From NCBI GenBank assembly GCA_028867335.1, contig JAGWGN010000009.1, forward strand, positions 1 through 40,187: 40,187 nt of DNA. Direction: 5' to 3'. The stretch's first letter is position 1. Each line of letters starts with the position of its first letter. Below the pieces are notes generated by a model. The model searched no databases, had not been told where the DNA came from, and was given only the letters and a program-made list of their open reading frames with translations. Shown here piece by piece: positions 10,895 to 40,187 of the stretch. The translations under genes and the position numbers were made by a program. Origin of the DNA: Microcaldota archaeon. GTDB lineage: Archaea; Micrarchaeota; Micrarchaeia; Micrarchaeales; CABMGC01.

Positions 10895-10986
10895 CGCCTG
10901 CCTCTCCTATCCATCCTCGCCGCCAGCAGGAACAGGCCAATCACCGCCAGAATACTGAGAGCGAGAACAATCCAATAGAGTTTCAT
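10891..10986 (-). CDS. 31-residue single-span membrane peptide
   Basis: ATG 10986 overlaps the upstream stop as ATGA, and its stop overlaps the next start as GTGA, so it sits precisely in the operon. The peptide starts MKLYWIVLALSILAVIGLFL and ends LAARMDRRGRR: one transmembrane span and a basic tail. The tight coupling on both sides argues that it is translated. Function unknown. Confidence 0.65.
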   Translation of the reverse strand: MKLYWIVLALSILAVIGLFLLAARMDRRGRR

Positions 10987-11639
10987 TTCTGTTTCCTGAT
11001 AATCTTCATCGCCTCACGCGTGAGCCGTCTGTCTTGGGTATTCATCGCAGCATCCCAAAACTGCGCAGCAAGCCGTGTAGCAGGTCCCGAAGCATTGCAC
11101 GCAGCAGTACGCGCATACCGGCCAGCATCCCACACACCCCACACACCCCACATGAGAGCGTTACCAGCATCCACACCCGCATTCACCGCAGACCGCGCAG
11201 CCTCCCGCGCAGTCCATGCAATATATCGTGCAACCCGTTGAGATATCGTAGCATCACGCGCGGCAGCCCGCAAGGATACGTCGCCAGTTTTCAGGAATTT
11301 AATAACTACATCTGGGGCATCCCATAGATGGGCAACGTCCAGCGCAAACTTACGCGCGGCCCTTCGCAACAAATCCCCAGCATCGAATTGTGCGATAATC
11401 CTACGCTTGTGGCATACCAGCTTATCTTCCCGTTCTTCCACAATATCAGCGCACTCAACGCGGCAGAGCGTGTTGCCGGGAGCATATTGCAGTGCGTCTA
11501 TGAGGCGGCGACTGGCGTGCAGCCCAGATTCACACATCACGCACTCACCTTCGTGGACGAGCCACTCGCCAATAGGCGGAAGCGGGCGACCATCGCGGAG
11601 TTTATCGCCTGAGAAGTGCCAAGCCAGAACAGGTTTCAT
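10983..11639 (-). CDS. DUF7666-like protein with Ala-rich repeat tail
   Basis: 218 residues. The N-terminal half has a cysteine/histidine pattern, GECVMCESGLHASRRLIDAL, then LCRVECADIVEEREDKLVC, like the DUF7666-type domain of phages and bacteria. From about residue 110 the protein becomes Ala/Arg-rich with degenerate short repeats (AARDATISQRVARYIAWTA, AREAARSAVNAG). It ends LTREAMKIIRKQK, similar to the end of the 11999-12652 protein (EREAQAKIIRKYLK), suggesting a related C-terminal module. Function unknown. Confidence 0.65.
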   Translation of the reverse strand: MKPVLAWHFSGDKLRDGRPLPPIGEWLVHEGECVMCESGLHASRRLIDALQYAPGNTLCRVECADIVEEREDKLVCHKRRIIAQFDAGDLLRRAARKFALDVAHLWDAPDVVIKFLKTGDVSLRAAARDATISQRVARYIAWTAREAARSAVNAGVDAGNALMWGVWGVWDAGRYARTAACNASGPATRLAAQFWDAAMNTQDRRLTREAMKIIRKQK

Positions 11640-11640
11640 T

Positions 11641-11832
11641 TCAGGTTCTCGGTTTATCTGCGCGACTCACCACCCGACAATACCCACACAACCCATCATG
11701 CGTGATGCGGCACAGCGGCTCGCCGCAGATATTGCACTGGGGATTCAACGGGAAAGCTTCCTGGCGCTTCTCCAGCGACATGCGGGCGATGCGCGCAGGC
11801 ATCAGGAATCTGTCAATAGCTTCTTTGTTCAT
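11641..11832 (-). CDS. Small zinc-ribbon-like protein
   Basis: 63 residues. Cys33-x2-Cys36, Cys41, His45 and Cys49-x2-Cys52 could bind zinc. The N-terminal half is helical and basic. A ribosome site (GAGGGG) lies six bases before ATG 11832. A nucleic-acid or protein adaptor role is plausible but not shown. Confidence 0.6.
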   Translation of the reverse strand: MNKEAIDRFLMPARIARMSLEKRQEAFPLNPQCNICGEPLCRITHDGLCGYCRVVSRADKPRT

Positions 11833-11841
11833 GGCTGCCCC

Positions 11842-11988
11842 TCACTTCACGTCCCGCATGTGGTAATGACGCCTGTCATAGCGCCGGTAGTAGTGCCAGT
11901 TCCACAGCCACTCTAGGGCGCAGCCTACCAGCAGCAGACCAAGTAGCGGCAATGTTATCATCAGCAGTGTTTCGATGTTGTCTAGCAT
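11842..11988 (-). CDS. 48-residue membrane peptide
   Basis: ATG 11988 has AAGGAGAAGG close upstream, one of the best ribosome sites in this block. The peptide begins MLDNIETLLMITLPLLGLLL, continues VGCALEWLWNWHYY and ends in a basic, His/Arg-rich tail: one membrane span with N-out topology likely. It lies between the zinc-ribbon gene and the Ala-repeat gene. Function unknown. Confidence 0.65.
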   Translation of the reverse strand: MLDNIETLLMITLPLLGLLLVGCALEWLWNWHYYRRYDRRHYHMRDVK

Positions 11989-11998
11989 AGCCTTCTCC

Positions 11999-12652
11999 TT
12001 ATTTCAGATATTTACGGATAATTTTCGCCTGGGCTTCGCGTTCATCAGCATCAGCAGCAGCATCAGCAGCATAAGCAGCAGCAGCATAAGCAGCATGAGC
12101 AACATAAGCAGCATGAGCAACATAAGCAGCATGAGCAACATAAGCAGCATGAGCAGCATAAGCAGCATCAGCAGCAGCATCAGCAGCATAAGCAGCAGCA
12201 GCATAAGCAGCATGAGCAACATAAGCAGCATCAGCAGCATAAGCAGCAGCAACAGCAGCAGCATCATAAGCAGCATCAGTAGCAGCATAAGCAGTAGCAG
12301 CATATTTTTTAAGAGCTTTGAGCGTTATCTTACCTTGCGCATACCGCCGACAGGCGTTGATGCACTCGCGTGGTCCCTTGTCATTTGGGTGTTTGGCCTC
12401 AAAATGCTTCAGCACTCTGGCGACCATATCCGCGCACATAGCAACGCGCAGCTTTGGTTTGTCGGGCATAGCCGCATGCAGCGCCCACATCATGTCCTGT
12501 ACGCCGTTCGATTCTAGGATATGCAGCAGGTTTATCGGCTTATCCTCTGGATAGTCCGGGGGCAAGGACTTGAGCAGTGTGGCCCACCCAGAAGCGCACG
12601 GGCTATGCTCGCGTAACTTTGCGAGTGTGGTAATGAGGCGTGTTTTTGTCAT
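11999..12652 (-). CDS. Imm5-like protein with Ala-rich helical repeats
   Basis: 217 residues. The N-terminus (LAKLREHSPCASGWATLLKS) and the following segment resemble Imm5-like putative immunity proteins, which occur in phages and bacteria followed by Ala-rich repeats. From about 118 to 205 the protein is built of AAYAADAA and AYVAHA blocks, encoded by near-uniform GCT/GCA codons. The predicted form is a long helix or helical solenoid. The C-terminus EREAQAKIIRKYLK is charged. The true function in phages is unknown; 'immunity' is a family label only. The start has GGAG upstream. Confidence 0.65.
   Translation of the reverse strand: MTKTRLITTLAKLREHSPCASGWATLLKSLPPDYPEDKPINLLHILESNGVQDMMWALHAAMPDKPKLRVAMCADMVARVLKHFEAKHPNDKGPRECINACRRYAQGKITLKALKKYAATAYAATDAAYDAAAVAAAYAADAAYVAHAAYAAAAYAADAAADAAYAAHAAYVAHAAYVAHAAYVAHAAYAAAAYAADAAADADEREAQAKIIRKYLK
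12092..12163 (-). repeat. 18-bp tandem repeat, four copies
   Basis: The unit AGCATGAGCAACATAAGC (plus-strand view) is repeated exactly three times (12092-12145), and a fourth copy has one mismatch. It encodes the AYVAHA block. The wider region about 12040-12303 is a trinucleotide-like AGCAGCATA tract. Perfect copies imply recent expansion. Confidence 0.9.
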
Positions 12653-13281
12653 GATTGGCTCCTCAATGCTTCCAGTTGTTCAATCTTGCGCTGCATTTCT
12701 ACAAGGAAATCGCGCACGCCGGTCTCGAGTTCCGATATGGCATCGTCATCGCGCTCGATGCGCTGGACGAATAGCATAAGGTTGCCCGGCATCCGGTTAT
12801 CGTAGCTCACGAAATCGCACCACTTGCGGCCTGAGCAGGCGAGCTGCCACATGATCTGCTGGTAATATTTGCCCGGTACTTTGCCGCTCAGCAGCGTTTC
12901 GATATGCGTTGCTGTGTTGGGGCATTTTAGCTCCAGCAGGCCGTCCTCAGCGATCAGCCCATCTGGCGATGCATGCGTTCCCGGTATCTCTGGATGCGTG
13001 AACATCCCGCACTCAGAGACCTCGACACCGCGCAGGAATGCATAGGCATCACGCGCCTCAGGCTCTACCTCGATACCGCGCTGCATGGCGGCATTCGTGT
13101 AGCCCTCCTGTGCCATGCCAGTCATGCGCTCGGCAATCAGCTGCGCCATGACGTTGTAGCGCGAAGCTCCGTAACCGGACTTGGTGCGCGCCAGTGCATC
13201 GGCTATCTGCGATGCACCGAGACTGCCGCAGCGGAGCTTGAACCATTCATCGCTGCGCTGGCTGACTTGGATATGGCTCAT
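12649..13281 (-). CDS. YqaJ/lambda-type exonuclease (recombinase partner)
   Basis: 210 residues with a good ribosome site (AGGAG) before ATG 13281. The N-terminus (QRSDEWFKLRCGSLGAS), RGIEVEPEARDAY (about 68-80), SPDGL with Asp107, and LELKCP with Glu117 and Lys119 make up the YqaJ/lambda exonuclease fold with its D-ExK metal site. The usual reaction is 5'-to-3' digestion of one strand of double-stranded DNA ends, leaving single strands for the annealing protein encoded at 13535-14257. Length is normal for the family. It overlaps the downstream gene by four bases. Confidence 0.9.
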   Translation of the reverse strand: MSHIQVSQRSDEWFKLRCGSLGASQIADALARTKSGYGASRYNVMAQLIAERMTGMAQEGYTNAAMQRGIEVEPEARDAYAFLRGVEVSECGMFTHPEIPGTHASPDGLIAEDGLLELKCPNTATHIETLLSGKVPGKYYQQIMWQLACSGRKWCDFVSYDNRMPGNLMLFVQRIERDDDAISELETGVRDFLVEMQRKIEQLEALRSQS

Positions 13282-13289
13282 GGTTTCTC

Positions 13290-13538
13290 CTAGAACGGGA
13301 TGGAATCTGTAAATTCCGGCTTCGCTTCAGAGCGCGCTTCAGACTTCGGCGCCGGCGCGCGCTCCTGAGGCAAGCTAACCCTCAGGCTAAGAAATGGCCC
13401 TTTCTGGCCGTGTTTCTGCCAGCCAGCTAGCCGGTACTCAATGCCGTTCACCGTGAGCTTGCCCTGATAATCCGGCTGATTGTCTTTGGTCTTGCGGTCA
13501 TTCTTGAATAGGATGCCGCTCATGTCATAATCGCTCAT
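13290..13538 (-). CDS. Single-stranded-DNA-binding-like small protein
   Basis: 82 residues between the annealing protein and the exonuclease. The first 60 residues look like a small OB-like beta protein (SGILFKNDRKTKDNQPDYQG, then RLAGWQKHG). A Pro/Ala/Glu-rich linker follows, and the C-terminus is EFTDSIPF. An acidic tail ending in IPF resembles the tip by which bacterial SSB recruits partners. I infer a ssDNA-binding or accessory role in phage recombination. It overlaps the upstream gene by four bases. Confidence 0.7.
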   Translation of the reverse strand: MSDYDMSGILFKNDRKTKDNQPDYQGKLTVNGIEYRLAGWQKHGQKGPFLSLRVSLPQERAPAPKSEARSEAKPEFTDSIPF

Positions 13539-14257
13539 TTCGATTTCCTCTTGGTTTCGATAGCCTTTACCATATCAGGATACGCCTGCGCCGCTATATC
13601 CTCAAGCCGCTCAACCTTCGCCCATTTCAGGAACGCGGCCTCGCTGCTCCCGGTTTCATCCAGCAGCGCCTTTAGATTAAGCGCCTGATCCTGAGTGATG
13701 CGCGGCAGGTTATTGCCTGCGGCGTTACCGCCGTCGTCATCCTCGCCTATCGCGATGTTGAATATCATCTTGAGCAGGTAGCGCATACCATAGCTCATGG
13801 CCGAGCCGGTGGCGTGCGTTTTTGTCATTACATCGCCACCCTTCGCGCCTTTGCCGTCCGCGGGCATGTCCACGTGATAGGTGCGGCTGAATCCTCCGCG
13901 ATGCGATACATAGCACTGCACGCGCACCGCCTGGTCGAGAGTCGTTTCACCAGTATCAAAACTGAGCGCGAATCCGTGGGTTGTATAAATAGGGCGCACC
14001 ACGCGGTCGAGTGCTGCATAGCTGGCGTATTTGCTCCGCGTCTGCGGATTGCTGGCATCTGCCACGATGCGGCGCAATTCCGCCTGCACCGCAGACATGG
14101 CAGCATTAAATTCGGACTCGCCAAGCTTCGCGTCCATGCGTTCCTTCATATCCAATAGCTTCTGCATCTTGTCAACATCAACCGCCGGGTCAGACGCGGC
14201 CCGCGCTATGATGGCTAGAATGCTCGGCTCATTTTCAACCTGTACGATAGCGTTCAT
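13535..14257 (-). CDS. erf: ERF-family single-strand annealing protein
   Basis: 240 residues with GGAG nine bases before ATG 14257. The sequence LGESEFNAAMSAVQAEL, YASYAALDRVVRPIYTTHGF and THATGSAMSYGMRYLLKMIF matches the ERF superfamily. These proteins anneal complementary single strands and help circularise phage genomes after entry. An acidic, Gly-rich segment (GEDDDGGNAAGNN, about 170-185) separates the core from a helical C-terminal domain. With the exonuclease at 12649 it forms a two-component recombination system, which fits a terminally redundant genome. Confidence 0.9.
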   Translation of the reverse strand: MNAIVQVENEPSILAIIARAASDPAVDVDKMQKLLDMKERMDAKLGESEFNAAMSAVQAELRRIVADASNPQTRSKYASYAALDRVVRPIYTTHGFALSFDTGETTLDQAVRVQCYVSHRGGFSRTYHVDMPADGKGAKGGDVMTKTHATGSAMSYGMRYLLKMIFNIAIGEDDDGGNAAGNNLPRITQDQALNLKALLDETGSSEAAFLKWAKVERLEDIAAQAYPDMVKAIETKRKSK

Positions 14258-15287: not shown

Positions 15288-15596
15288 TCATTCTCCTTTT
15301 GATATTGAGGTGGCCGATTGTTGGAGTTCTTTTAATTGCTGCTCTAGTTTATTGGCACGAATGTATTCCTCATACCACCTCTTGCCCTGCGATTCCATCT
15401 CGGCATCGGCGGCCTTTTTGTTATCATCTAGTGCCTTGCGCTGGGCTGGTGATTCGTCTGCGATCACCTGAAATTCTAATGGTAAACCATACGCGTCCAC
15501 GCAACCAGCAAGAGCCGCCACTATCCCAGTGAACGGCGAGCTAAATGTAGTAAACTCCGTTCCATATCCGATTCTAATATAACGAGTATCTTTCAT
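15288..15596 (-). CDS. Hypothetical early protein, first gene of the leftward block
   Basis: 102 residues. ATG 15596 has AGGAGC eight bases upstream; the longer frame to 15617 would include this site and is rejected. The N-terminal half is beta-rich (YIRIGYGTEFTTFSSPFTG). The C-terminal half is a charged helix that may form a coiled coil (about 55-95). It is first behind the leftward promoter and palindromes at 15667-15741, so it is the gene most directly controlled by them. Function unknown. Confidence 0.65.
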   Translation of the reverse strand: MKDTRYIRIGYGTEFTTFSSPFTGIVAALAGCVDAYGLPLEFQVIADESPAQRKALDDNKKAADAEMESQGKRWYEEYIRANKLEQQLKELQQSATSISKGE

Positions 15597-15693: not shown

Positions 15694-15722
15694 TATATAC
15701 GCTAAAGCGTATATTCCGCCAA
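15694..15722 (-). promoter_or_regulatory. Predicted leftward early promoter
   Basis: On the minus strand, TTGGCG (15717-15722) and TATATA (15694-15699) are 17 bases apart. The 20-bp palindrome 15695-15714 occupies the spacer and overlaps the -10 box. Transcription would start near 15687 and read the recombination operon. Confidence 0.55.
15695..15714. promoter_or_regulatory. Operator-like palindrome, site 1
   Basis: ATATACGCT-AA-AGCGTATAT has 9-bp perfect arms around two bases. It overlaps the leftward promoter, so binding should repress it. It matches site 2 (15722-15741) at 17 of 20 positions and the site at 23225-23238 at 13 of 14 core positions. Confidence 0.65.
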
Positions 15723-15741
15723 TATACGCTATACGGTATAT
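15722..15741. promoter_or_regulatory. Operator-like palindrome, site 2
   Basis: ATATACGCTATACGGTATAT matches site 1 at 17 of 20 positions. The outer arms AATATAC/GTATATT pair perfectly, but the inner bases do not. The centres of sites 1 and 2 are 27 bp apart, about 2.6 helical turns. It begins at the last base of the leftward -35 box. Confidence 0.6.
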
Positions 15742-15743
15742 TC

Positions 15744-15771
15744 GTGTTACATTACTGGCCAGTAGTGACAC
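15744..15771. promoter_or_regulatory. Long inverted repeat of unrelated sequence
   Basis: TACTGGCCAGTA (15753-15764) is a perfect 12-bp palindrome. It extends outward with one mismatch as CAT...GTG, and with a two-base bulge to GTGT...ACAC at 15744 and 15771. Its sequence differs from the ATATACGCT sites, so a different protein would bind it, or it forms a cruciform. Confidence 0.5.
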
Positions 15772-15858: not shown

Positions 15859-16089
15859 ATGAGTAAATTAGACCGTAGCGAATCTTGTTACTCAGAATGT
15901 GGTGACCGCAGACGACACCCAGAGTACCATCGCACCAAGACCAATGAGCTATATGCACATTTTAGGGATGGCAGTGTTTATCGCGTGGAGGAACAGCCGC
16001 AACATACCGGTAGCCTTTTCTGCTGTCAGGGCAAAAGACGACCAGCAGCGTTAATCTTCCACCGCATCAATGGAGGAAGTCAGGGATGA
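15859..16089 (+). CDS. Hypothetical small early protein, first of the rightward block
   Basis: 76 residues from ATG 15859 with TGAGGA nine bases upstream; the TTG at 15844 is rejected because it includes that site. The protein is basic and has Cys at about 10 and 14 and a CC pair near 54-55 (GSLFCCQGKRRPAALIF), but no known motif. As the first gene behind the rightward promoter it is a candidate early regulator, with no helix-turn-helix visible. It overlaps the next gene as ATGA. Confidence 0.6.
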   Translation: MSKLDRSESCYSECGDRRRHPEYHRTKTNELYAHFRDGSVYRVEEQPQHTGSLFCCQGKRRPAALIFHRINGGSQG

Positions 16090-16610
16090 CTGACGACCCC
16101 CAGCGAGGTCGCGCAGGCTCTGCGGAGCGCCGCAGCGTCGGGCAGTTATATAGACGAGCCAATGAGGATTCGTGCGTGCTGACAGTTTGCCCCATCAGTT
16201 TTAAGGATGCGAATGCCTTTGTTGCGATGCACCACCGGCACCACAAACCAGTGCAAGGCCATAAATTTTCTATAGCGGTGACAGATGGAGAGCGGGTGCG
16301 CGGAGTTGCTATCATCGGGCGACCCGTGGCTCGCCATGCGGATGATGGCGCGACCCTAGAAGTGAACCGGCTCTGCACGGATGGAGCGCGCAACGCTTGC
16401 TCGATGATGTATGCGGCAGCGTGGCGAGCGGCTAAGGCCCTTGGATATAGGCGGCTCATAACCTACACGCTCCCCGAGGAAGGTGGTGCAAGCCTGCGGG
16501 CCGCAGGGTGGAAGTGCATTGGCGAAGCTGGTGGGGGTTCATGGAAGCGCGCAGCTCGTGACAGAGCAGACGCACATCCGCTCCAGGTGAAGCTGCGGTG
16601 GGAAGCTTAG
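16086..16610 (+). CDS. XF1762-family, acetyltransferase-like phage protein
   Basis: 174 residues. From about 35 onward (ISFKDANAFVAMHHRHHKPV, GHKFSIAVTDGERVRGVAII, GRPVARHADDGATLEVNRLC, then CSMMYAAAWRAAKALGYRRL) it matches the XF1762 family common in phages. The layout recalls a GNAT acetyltransferase fold: an acceptor-like helix, then a GY-RLITYTL beta strand and a C-terminal GW loop. The substrate is unknown. The first 30 residues are low in conserved features, so the true start might be later, although the ATGA overlap supports 16086. Confidence 0.8.
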   Translation: MTDDPQRGRAGSAERRSVGQLYRRANEDSCVLTVCPISFKDANAFVAMHHRHHKPVQGHKFSIAVTDGERVRGVAIIGRPVARHADDGATLEVNRLCTDGARNACSMMYAAAWRAAKALGYRRLITYTLPEEGGASLRAAGWKCIGEAGGGSWKRAARDRADAHPLQVKLRWEA

Positions 16611-16666: not shown

Positions 16667-17461
16667 ATGAGCTATACAAAATTACAGTCGAGCATCATAG
16701 CATCTACTATCTGGGCCGAGCCCGCTAGTACTAGAGTTGTGTGGATCACCATGCTGGCGCTGGCAAACCGGGATGGATATGTTGCCGCTAGTGTGCCTGG
16801 ACTTGCGCATATCGCACATGTCACACGTGCCGAGGCTGAAAATGCGTTATACACCCTCAGCCAGCCAGACCCCGATAGCCGGTCAACTATCTGCGAAGGG
16901 CGCCGCATTGAGGCTACTGATGGCGGTTGGAACATCATTAACTATGTGGCGAACCGCGACTCATGGACTGACGATGATAAACGCGAATTTCAGCGCAAAT
17001 GGATAGCTGAGAAGCGCGCCAAGGCAGAATTGTCGAAGTATGTCGAAGTGAGTCGAAGTTGTCGAAGTGAGTCGACGCGAATCGAACCTCCAGCTCCAGC
17101 TCCAACTCCATCTCCAAAGAAAGAGAGGCGCGCTACCGCGCTACCCACTGATTTCGGATTAACACCAGAAAGAGTTGCCTATGCCAGCCAGTACAATGTC
17201 CAGAGCGTACAAAACGTGATGGAAGCCTTCTGCAATCACCATCGAGCCAAGGGCAGCACGATGAAGGACTGGGAAGCGGCATGGAGGACATGGGTACTAC
17301 GGGAAGCTCGGTACGGTAAAAAGCCGTACCATGAAAACGTGTCGGATAATTCAAGGAAATCCGACGCATCCATCCTCGACCTCTGCAAACTGTCGGGCAT
17401 ATCGACACACGGCAAGAGCCGGGATGAGCTGCTGCTGGCGCTAAAGCGAGTGAGACCGTAA
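16667..17461 (+). CDS. O-like replication initiation / helicase-loading protein
   Basis: 264 residues. The N-terminal 100 residues (YTKLQSSIIASTIWAEPAST, then RVVWITMLALANRDG and VPGLAHIAHVTRAEAENALY) are a winged-helix domain typical of phage replication initiators. A Pro-rich linker follows (PPAPAPTPSPKK, about 141-153). The C-terminal part has VMEAFCNHHRAKGSTMKDWE and AAWRTWVLRE (about 184-215), like the DnaT/O C-terminal DNA-binding module. Four GTCGAAGT repeats lie within the gene just before the linker. It probably binds them as the origin and loads the host helicase, as no helicase is encoded. Confidence 0.8.
   Translation: MSYTKLQSSIIASTIWAEPASTRVVWITMLALANRDGYVAASVPGLAHIAHVTRAEAENALYTLSQPDPDSRSTICEGRRIEATDGGWNIINYVANRDSWTDDDKREFQRKWIAEKRAKAELSKYVEVSRSCRSESTRIEPPAPAPTPSPKKERRATALPTDFGLTPERVAYASQYNVQSVQNVMEAFCNHHRAKGSTMKDWEAAWRTWVLREARYGKKPYHENVSDNSRKSDASILDLCKLSGISTHGKSRDELLLALKRVRP
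17032..17086 (+). repeat. Iteron-like repeats, candidate replication origin
   Basis: GTCGAAGT occurs at 17032, 17042, 17052 and 17061, then GTCGACGC at 17071 and TCGAA at 17082. Spacing is 10, 10, 9, 10 and 11 bases, close to one helical turn, so the sites face one side of the DNA. They lie inside the replication gene, as in lambda O. Confidence 0.65.
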
Positions 17462-17658
17462 TGGAAACCCGCATCTGCATTGAGTGCGGCATTGATAAGC
17501 CCCTCAACAAATTCGGGGTTAGTGGCCACGGTCGCGGGCATCGCAAACGGTGCTATACTTGCCGTAGCCAGAGATACATAGCCAACAAGATAGCGCGGGC
17601 CAATGAGGAAGTTAACAAACAGATCGCTCGAAACTCTAAGGGCTGGGGTTATATTTAA
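17461..17658 (+). CDS. Small zinc-finger protein
   Basis: 65 residues, starting on the last base of the replication gene's stop (TAATG). Cys6-x2-Cys9 and Cys31-x2-Cys34 with basic residues between (GHGRGHRKRCYTC) suggest a zinc ribbon that binds nucleic acid. The pattern CxECG-x-KP-x-x-KF recalls the zinc segment found before HNH nucleases, but no HNH part is present. It is coupled to the replication gene, so a role in replication or its control is likely. Confidence 0.7.
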   Translation: METRICIECGIDKPLNKFGVSGHGRGHRKRCYTCRSQRYIANKIARANEEVNKQIARNSKGWGYI

Positions 17659-39604: not shown

Positions 39605-40187
39605 TGGCCGATACACTCATGGCTCAATGGGCAGCCCAAGCAGCCCAAGCAGCTAAACAGCCAGCGCCAACGGGAATACCTGCATCTGGCACTCAGCCAC
39701 AGACGCTTATGGGACAATGGGCCGCCGCTGCCGCTAAACAAGCGGCAATAGAACCCACTGGAAAGACCGTGCCAGATATAAATCCAAAAGGCGTCGCATA
39801 TAATGCTATCCTTAATAGCGGCTTAAATATGATCCCTGGGGGCCAACCAATAATAGGTGCCGGCGAAACGGCATTAAGTGCATTGACTGGGACTGCCGGA
39901 CAACTCTCAGGGGATATAGCTAATGTTGGCGCATCTGCAGGTAAAGCAATGGGTCTATACCACGGAGATCCTCAGGCACTAGGGGATAAGATTGCTGCGG
40001 CAATGACTTATAAACCAACATCTGATACTGGGCAACTGCTTTCTGGCGCTATAGGCAAAGCCTATGGCGCGACATTGGGCAAAGTACGCAATGCAGCAGT
40101 CACTGCAACCCAGAATAATTGGCTACCGCCAAATCCACTTACCGGATTGATGGGTTCATTCCAGAAGACCAGACCATTGGCAGCCGC
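39604..40187 (+). CDS. Internal virion/ejection-type protein, 5' part (continues at 1..1248)
   Basis: This is the amino-terminal part of one gene of 584 residues that runs 39604-40110 and then 1-1248 on the circle. Its start overlaps the stop of the upstream gene as TAATG. The N-terminus has two copies of a short motif, TLMAQWAAQA and TLMGQWAAAA (about residues 4-50), rich in Ala and Gln. A Gly/Ala-rich stretch follows (GGQPIIGAGETALSALTGTAG) that could touch or cross a membrane. It is last in a run of large Gln/Ala-rich proteins after the tail-nozzle genes, where P22-like and T7-like phages encode proteins ejected with the DNA. I recognise no family; the ejection role is inferred from position and composition. 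Confidence 0.75.
   Translation, partial: MADTLMAQWAAQAAQAAKQPAPTGIPASGTQPQTLMGQWAAAAAKQAAIEPTGKTVPDINPKGVAYNAILNSGLNMIPGGQPIIGAGETALSALTGTAGQLSGDIANVGASAGKAMGLYHGDPQALGDKIAAAMTYKPTSDTGQLLSGAIGKAYGATLGKVRNAAVTATQNNWLPPNPLTGLMGSFQKTRPLAA
40111..40187. repeat. Terminal direct repeat, right copy (same as 1-77)
   Basis: Identical to bases 1-77. Removing one copy gives a 40,110-base circle with an uninterrupted reading frame through the join (507 bases from 39604 to 40110, exactly 169 codons). Confidence 0.95.

Follow-up and report, generated by a model that had tools for sequence, protein, structure and literature searches.

The window analysed here, a stretch of 40,187 nucleotides, contains two closely related palindromes in an intergenic region flanked by a leftward operon and divergent rightward genes, raising the question of which protein binds them and what the phage would gain from it. 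The first-pass annotation had read them as twin operators lying 27 bp apart, and had concluded from the lack of an obvious encoded repressor that a new type of phage regulator, or a host factor, is implied. The palindromes themselves are borne out, the second copying the first at 17 of 20 positions. The distance of 27 bp is correct when taken from centre to centre, the gap between the two sites being 7 bp.

15695 to 15714, no strand assigned: operator O1, ATATACGCTAAAGCGTATAT (WTATAC-N8-GTATAW), the top-ranked site of the window at 28.5 bits with a matrix built on hipBA operators only
15715 to 15721, no strand assigned: 7-bp linker TCCGCCA (TGGCGGA when read leftward), which sets the 27-bp centre-to-centre spacing
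15722 to 15741, no strand assigned: operator O2, ATATACGCTATACGGTATAT, the second-ranked site of the window at 23.8 bits, with the next site scoring 11.3

O1 is the sole near-perfect palindrome of 20 bp within the window. No further copy with up to three mismatches occurs in the window, and none appeared in 100 dinucleotide shuffles. A separate near-palindrome, CATTACTGGCCAGTAGTG, is located at 15750-15767, 8 bp away from O2.

The leftward operon encodes a 102-aa protein, pentapeptide repeats, Erf, SSB and a YqaJ/RecE-like exonuclease. The genes on both sides of the pair that matter here are the following.

15288 to 15596, minus strand: 102-aa protein, the first gene left of the pair, of no family; its single-sequence fold has a long C-terminal helix and no HTH
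13535 to 14257, minus strand: Erf annealing protein (recombination gene)
13290 to 13538, minus strand: SSB (recombination gene)
12649 to 13281, minus strand: YqaJ/RecE-like exonuclease (recombination gene)
15859 to 16089, plus strand: 76-aa open reading frame of no family, a rightward gene
16086 to 16610, plus strand: Mom-like DNA modification protein, a rightward gene

The Mom-like protein (16086-16610) is a possible anti-restriction gene, and genes with DUF7666 and an Imm5-like immunity domain are found at 10983-12652 on the minus strand, at the distal end of the recombination operon. In agreement with the first-pass annotation, no recognisable repressor was found in the window phage, and the neighbouring proteins belong to no HTH family. 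The three proteins it had offered as candidates show no sign of being repressors: the product of 15288-15596 is predicted to adopt a strand-helix-strand head followed by the long helix, that of 15859-16089 yields a low-confidence and uninformative single-sequence model, and that of 17461-17658 weakly matches HNH/endonuclease VII families.

HipBA is a classic persistence toxin-antitoxin system, the natural role of which is debated. A weight matrix trained solely on 29 hipBA operators, which themselves range from 13.3 to 29.3 bits, assigns the window pair a sum of 52.3 bits, compared to best values of 20.2 bits for a single site and 18.3 bits for a pair in 100 shuffles. Upon searching 72,556 plasmids with a 46-nt consensus pair, the best matches are hipBA promoters, from Leisingera, Sulfitobacter (two), Pseudosulfitobacter, Glaesserella and Methylobacterium, and a Mesorhizobium plasmid match retains hipB next to a broken hipA. 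The variant core TATACCC likewise matches hipBA promoters in Aeromonas (two records read) and in Novosphingobium, where the genes are unannotated and were detected by HMM. Every proteobacterial plasmid pair that we examined represents a hipBA or hipB locus. A match in a Bacillota plasmid was rejected, as it is a terminator-like palindrome and not an operator pair.

The reverse search gives a consistent picture: hipB is preceded by between two and four operators at 13 of the 34 testable viral hipA loci. These operators are of the TATAC, TATGC or TATCC type, and their distances peak at 27, 28, 54 and 81 bp. The hipBA promoter of E. coli K-12 harbors four TATCC-N8-GGATA sites (O1-O4) arranged as two pairs at 28 bp, and this motif is the published HipB consensus (PMC3920265). 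Hence, judged by their sequence, the window palindromes are very probably HipB-type operators rather than a novel operator kind. The new type of phage regulator proposed earlier is not supported, since the arms, the 8-bp core, the 27-bp spacing and the matrix score all fit the known HipB operator class. Of the two suggestions, a host factor is the better one.

Positions 1-77 and 40111-40187 of the contig are identical over 77 bp, indicating that the contig is circular and that the phage genome is probably complete. Binning had assigned it, as contig 61, to a genome of 0.96 Mb. As this bin lacks HipA and the members of its family have genomes of 0.6-1.1 Mb, it may not be the host of the phage, and the placement of a circular phage contig in it is doubtful. 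No close relatives of the window phage at the DNA level were detected among 50,697 phage records. Its Erf and portal relatives in IMG/VR do not carry the operator pair, and neither do 39 genomes related to the bin.

Pairs of the same design are present in other phages. Searching IMG/VR for the pair without fixing the gap returned 26 contigs, almost all of which agree in spacing, and a scan for symmetric arms at a fixed 27-bp spacing returned 116 stretches. When the gap was allowed to vary between 1 and 31 bp, the 18-bp sites were separated by exactly 9 bases in 55 of 56 viral contigs, corresponding to 27 bp from centre to centre. In several contigs, a series of three or four sites repeats at this 27-bp interval. 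Bases at positions left open by the search follow the consensus (TATACGC with A/T flanks) and are palindromic above expectation, with 0.71 versus 0.25 at the outermost core position. Only six contigs of the 116-stretch scan have hipBA beside the pair (L130, L097, L153, L168, L165 and L079; for L079, hipA was located on the contig). The carriers in IMG/VR, more than 100 contigs, include T4-like, N4-like and giant Caulobacter phages. Among named phages, an orphan pair occurs in the N4-like Dinoroseobacter DS-1410Ws-06 and Roseobacter RD-1410Ws-07, as well as in Caulobacter CcrBL9, CcrSC and RB23. The pairs of L048, L051 and L052, which lie inside a long helicase-like reading frame, were rejected as chance matches. 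In L054 (1399-1700), repeats of 27/28 bp built on the same TATACG palindrome extend over 300 bp, possibly as an amplified operator array; this contig was excluded from the statistics.

The E. coli-type site TATCC-N8-GGATA forms a parallel set, found mostly in lambdoid-type prophages at a spacing of 27-28 bp. Among the matches listed, 100 of 107 distinct pairs adopt the 27- or 28-bp spacing, and 2 of 120 contigs have the pair at hipBA. A 48-nt BLAST query of this class gave no match in phages, as expected for such a degenerate motif. The pair of coliphage mEp237, TTATCCCTAGCAAGGGATAA-8 bp-TTATCCCCGCTAAGGGATAG, has a spacing of 28 bp and begins 3 bp past the stop codon of an Rz-like spanin gene; in lambdoid-type prophages (L237, L226, L320), the pair is often located between the lysis genes and the HNH/terminase genes. 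Where the host is known, the class of the arms tracks it: TATACG occurs in Caulobacter and Dinoroseobacter/Roseobacter phages and in the hipBA promoters of Rhodobacterales, and TATCC at 28 bp in both mEp237 and E. coli hipBA. The 83-kb phage contig IMGVR_UViG_3300033153_006411 bears two pairs (L042:8105 and L121:6519). These differ in core type (CGCT..AGCG versus CCCT..AGGG), as though each targeted its own HipB variant.

Orphan pairs are mostly intergenic, with 10 of 52 and 7 of 51 falling within open reading frames of at least 120 aa, versus a fraction of 0.68-0.69 for random positions. A comparison of three Caulobacter phages shows no change at any of the 24 arm bases but differences in core and linker, pointing at probable selection on the arms and their spacing. 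In Caulobacter phages, the pair lies about 10 bp past a tRNA gene, within a tRNA cluster. At L053 (10254-11180), in a phage of 166 kb that carries 16 or more tRNA genes, the pair directly follows tRNA-Glu and precedes the GOLLD giant RNA by about 450 bp. A role as promoter of a structured RNA, suggested by GOLLD after the L053 pair and by tRNA clusters at L053 and L060, was rejected, as no Rfam family is common to the loci; a role as RNA hairpin was likewise rejected, the arms being kept as DNA sequence while the cores vary. No gene common to the flanks was seen at the loci compared. In a marine phage family (L043, L044, L046, L064 and others), a conserved stretch about 300 bp beyond the pair contains no convincing gene and no Rfam match, and could be an RNA or a regulatory region not yet described. 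At L076, L105, L115, L118, L120, L127, L129 and L154, inverted copies resembling TTGGTGGAGGCG flank the pair, which is then central in a larger inverted repeat.

If host HipB or HipBA binds the pair, it might simply repress a phage promoter, in the window that of the leftward recombination operon, allowing the phage to sense a loss of HipB, for instance in stressed cells. The leftward promoter that the first-pass annotation had placed over O1 can be read there as a weak candidate, TTGGCG and TATATA separated by 17 bp, with 8 of 12 positions agreeing with the consensus. The candidate promoter elements at the pair are given below.

15717 to 15722, minus strand: TTGGCG, a possible -35 read leftward, its TTG falling in the linker as it does in hipBA promoters
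15694 to 15699, minus strand: possible leftward -10, TATATA, within O1; a weak candidate read from the sequence
15721 to 15750, minus strand: GTAACA-18-TATATT, an alternative promoter read leftward whose spacer contains O2, 9/12 in a promoter scan

Since the window pair is located between divergent operons and TTGGCG-17-TATATA overlaps O1, control of a promoter by host HipB is possible in the window phage. The position between divergent operons is a place where an operator is expected, and it counts against a decoy. With a TTGNNN -35 in the linker and a -10 in the proximal site, TTGGCG/TATATA is in the register of hipBA promoters, albeit as a weak match. This register is displayed by 11 of 11 hipBA promoters, as opposed to 1 of 56 orphan pairs; as that single pair is the one in the window, its -35 may be there by chance. 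In a few phages, good promoters do embed the site, such as TTGACT-17-TATTAT at L040 and TCGACA-17-TATATT at L043. Overall, however, 17 of 54 phage orphan pairs overlap a sigma70-like promoter where 12.1 are expected from shuffled flanks (95% range 6-18), and the other class of sites yields 6 versus 10.1, so that there is no excess in either class. Orphan pairs are not generally promoters. The low scores of the window promoters (8-9 of 12), the Caulobacter pairs inside a tRNA cluster and the mEp237 pair right behind a spanin stop codon argue further against promoter control, which we regard as an unlikely account of the pair.

For a paired site that is conserved but not a promoter, and that lacks a neighbouring gene of its own, a decoy binding host HipBA would be the best explanation. 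We favor, at a probability of roughly one half, the reading that host HipB or HipBA binds the window pair as an orphan HipBA operator, which would most likely serve as a titrating decoy and possibly also as a promoter operator. Two HipB dimer sites at the spacing of hipBA promoters would be occupied together by host HipB or by the HipB-HipA complex. As the phage DNA multiplies, the pairs would retain HipBA on phage DNA and off the hipBA promoter, and the toxin held there would stay in an inactive bound complex. Titration of HipBA would in addition derepress hipBA and thereby resupply the antitoxin, and in the window phage the pair may also control a weak promoter that reads leftward into the recombination operon. 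Depending on the form that is bound, a decoy could instead free HipA rather than hold it inactive.

That an orphan pair acts as a decoy appears to us slightly short of an even bet. More tentatively still, unrelated phage lineages may independently carry gene-less, host-matched HipBA operator pairs as decoys that capture HipBA on their multiplying genomes. This would be an anti-toxin-antitoxin strategy relying on DNA instead of protein. Phage defence by HipA-family kinases would supply a reason for such a decoy: HipAD, a HipA-family kinase system, defends against phage (PMC13092281), although its antitoxin is unlike HipB.

Another way to read the pair is that it is occupied by some other DNA-binding protein of the host whose specificity resembles that of HipB. 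Hosts are rich in Cro-like HTH proteins, which could provide such a binder. Opposed to this are the location of all examined proteobacterial plasmid pairs at hipBA or hipB loci and the identity of the E. coli class with the published HipB consensus (PMC3920265), making this option improbable. The pair might also be a relic of a phage or ancestor that had hipBA and lost the genes while keeping the operators, as complete hipBA behind the same operators in the viral contigs L130, L097 and L153 would allow. This would require the same loss in many unrelated phages, the hipBA -35 is absent in 55 of 56 orphan pairs though arms and spacing persist, and the Caulobacter arms do not vary at all, so that we give the relic very little weight. 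A new phage-encoded repressor, unrecognisable by sequence, which the two small neighbour proteins without a family and some HTH_3 proteins in large pair-bearing phages (CcrBL9, CcrSC and the phage of L053, where a phage-encoded regulator is possible as they encode HTH_3 proteins of their own) might suggest, is equally improbable given that the hipBA matrix accounts for the sites, that no common gene is seen beside the pairs, that no HTH_3 match turns up in the window phage at E values of up to 10, and that neither the 76-kb N4-like phage DS-1410Ws-06 nor three other phage records have one at E up to 1.

Hundreds of phage contigs with a gene-less operator pair suggest that encounters with HipBA are frequent enough to shape phages. 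Cultured examples are coliphage mEp237, together with the hipBA of E. coli, and the Caulobacter and Dinoroseobacter phages. No description of phage-borne HipB operators was found in the open-access literature by title and abstract, subscription journals being outside the scope of this search.

Among known systems, operators of the lambda CI/Cro type are spaced palindromes as in the window pair. They are bound by dimers of Cro-like HTH proteins, at a spacing of about 23-24 bp, and their repressors are phage-encoded. In the lambda-type switch, the repressor lies beside the operators, whereas the window phage shows no repressor gene. The window sites agree better with HipB operators, having TAT(A/C)C-type arms around an N8 core and at least two sites at 27/28 bp, without being located at a hipB-hipA promoter. 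As neither HipA nor HipB is present in the window, with no HipA_C match and no HipB-like frame, we call them a HipB-type orphan pair and not a hipBA locus. Unlike hipBA operators, the window pair has neither hipB nor hipA in its vicinity or elsewhere in the phage genome, and orphan pairs mostly miss the hipBA core promoter. For Caulobacter crescentus, identical inverted repeats at matching intervals are described in the hipBA1 and hipBA2 promoters (PMC7029023); by this description, they are chromosomal and ahead of hipBA, unlike the orphan phage pair. The E. coli HipB operators share with the window pair the 5-bp arms around an 8-bp core and the arrangement in pairs of fixed spacing. They differ in the arm (TATCC versus TATAC), in the number of sites (four versus two) and in the spacing, which is 28 bp in E. 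coli hipBA and 27 bp in both the window pair and alphaproteobacterial hipBA. The HipB operator class in hipBA promoters is already known; what surprises is its occurrence as an orphan pair in phages.
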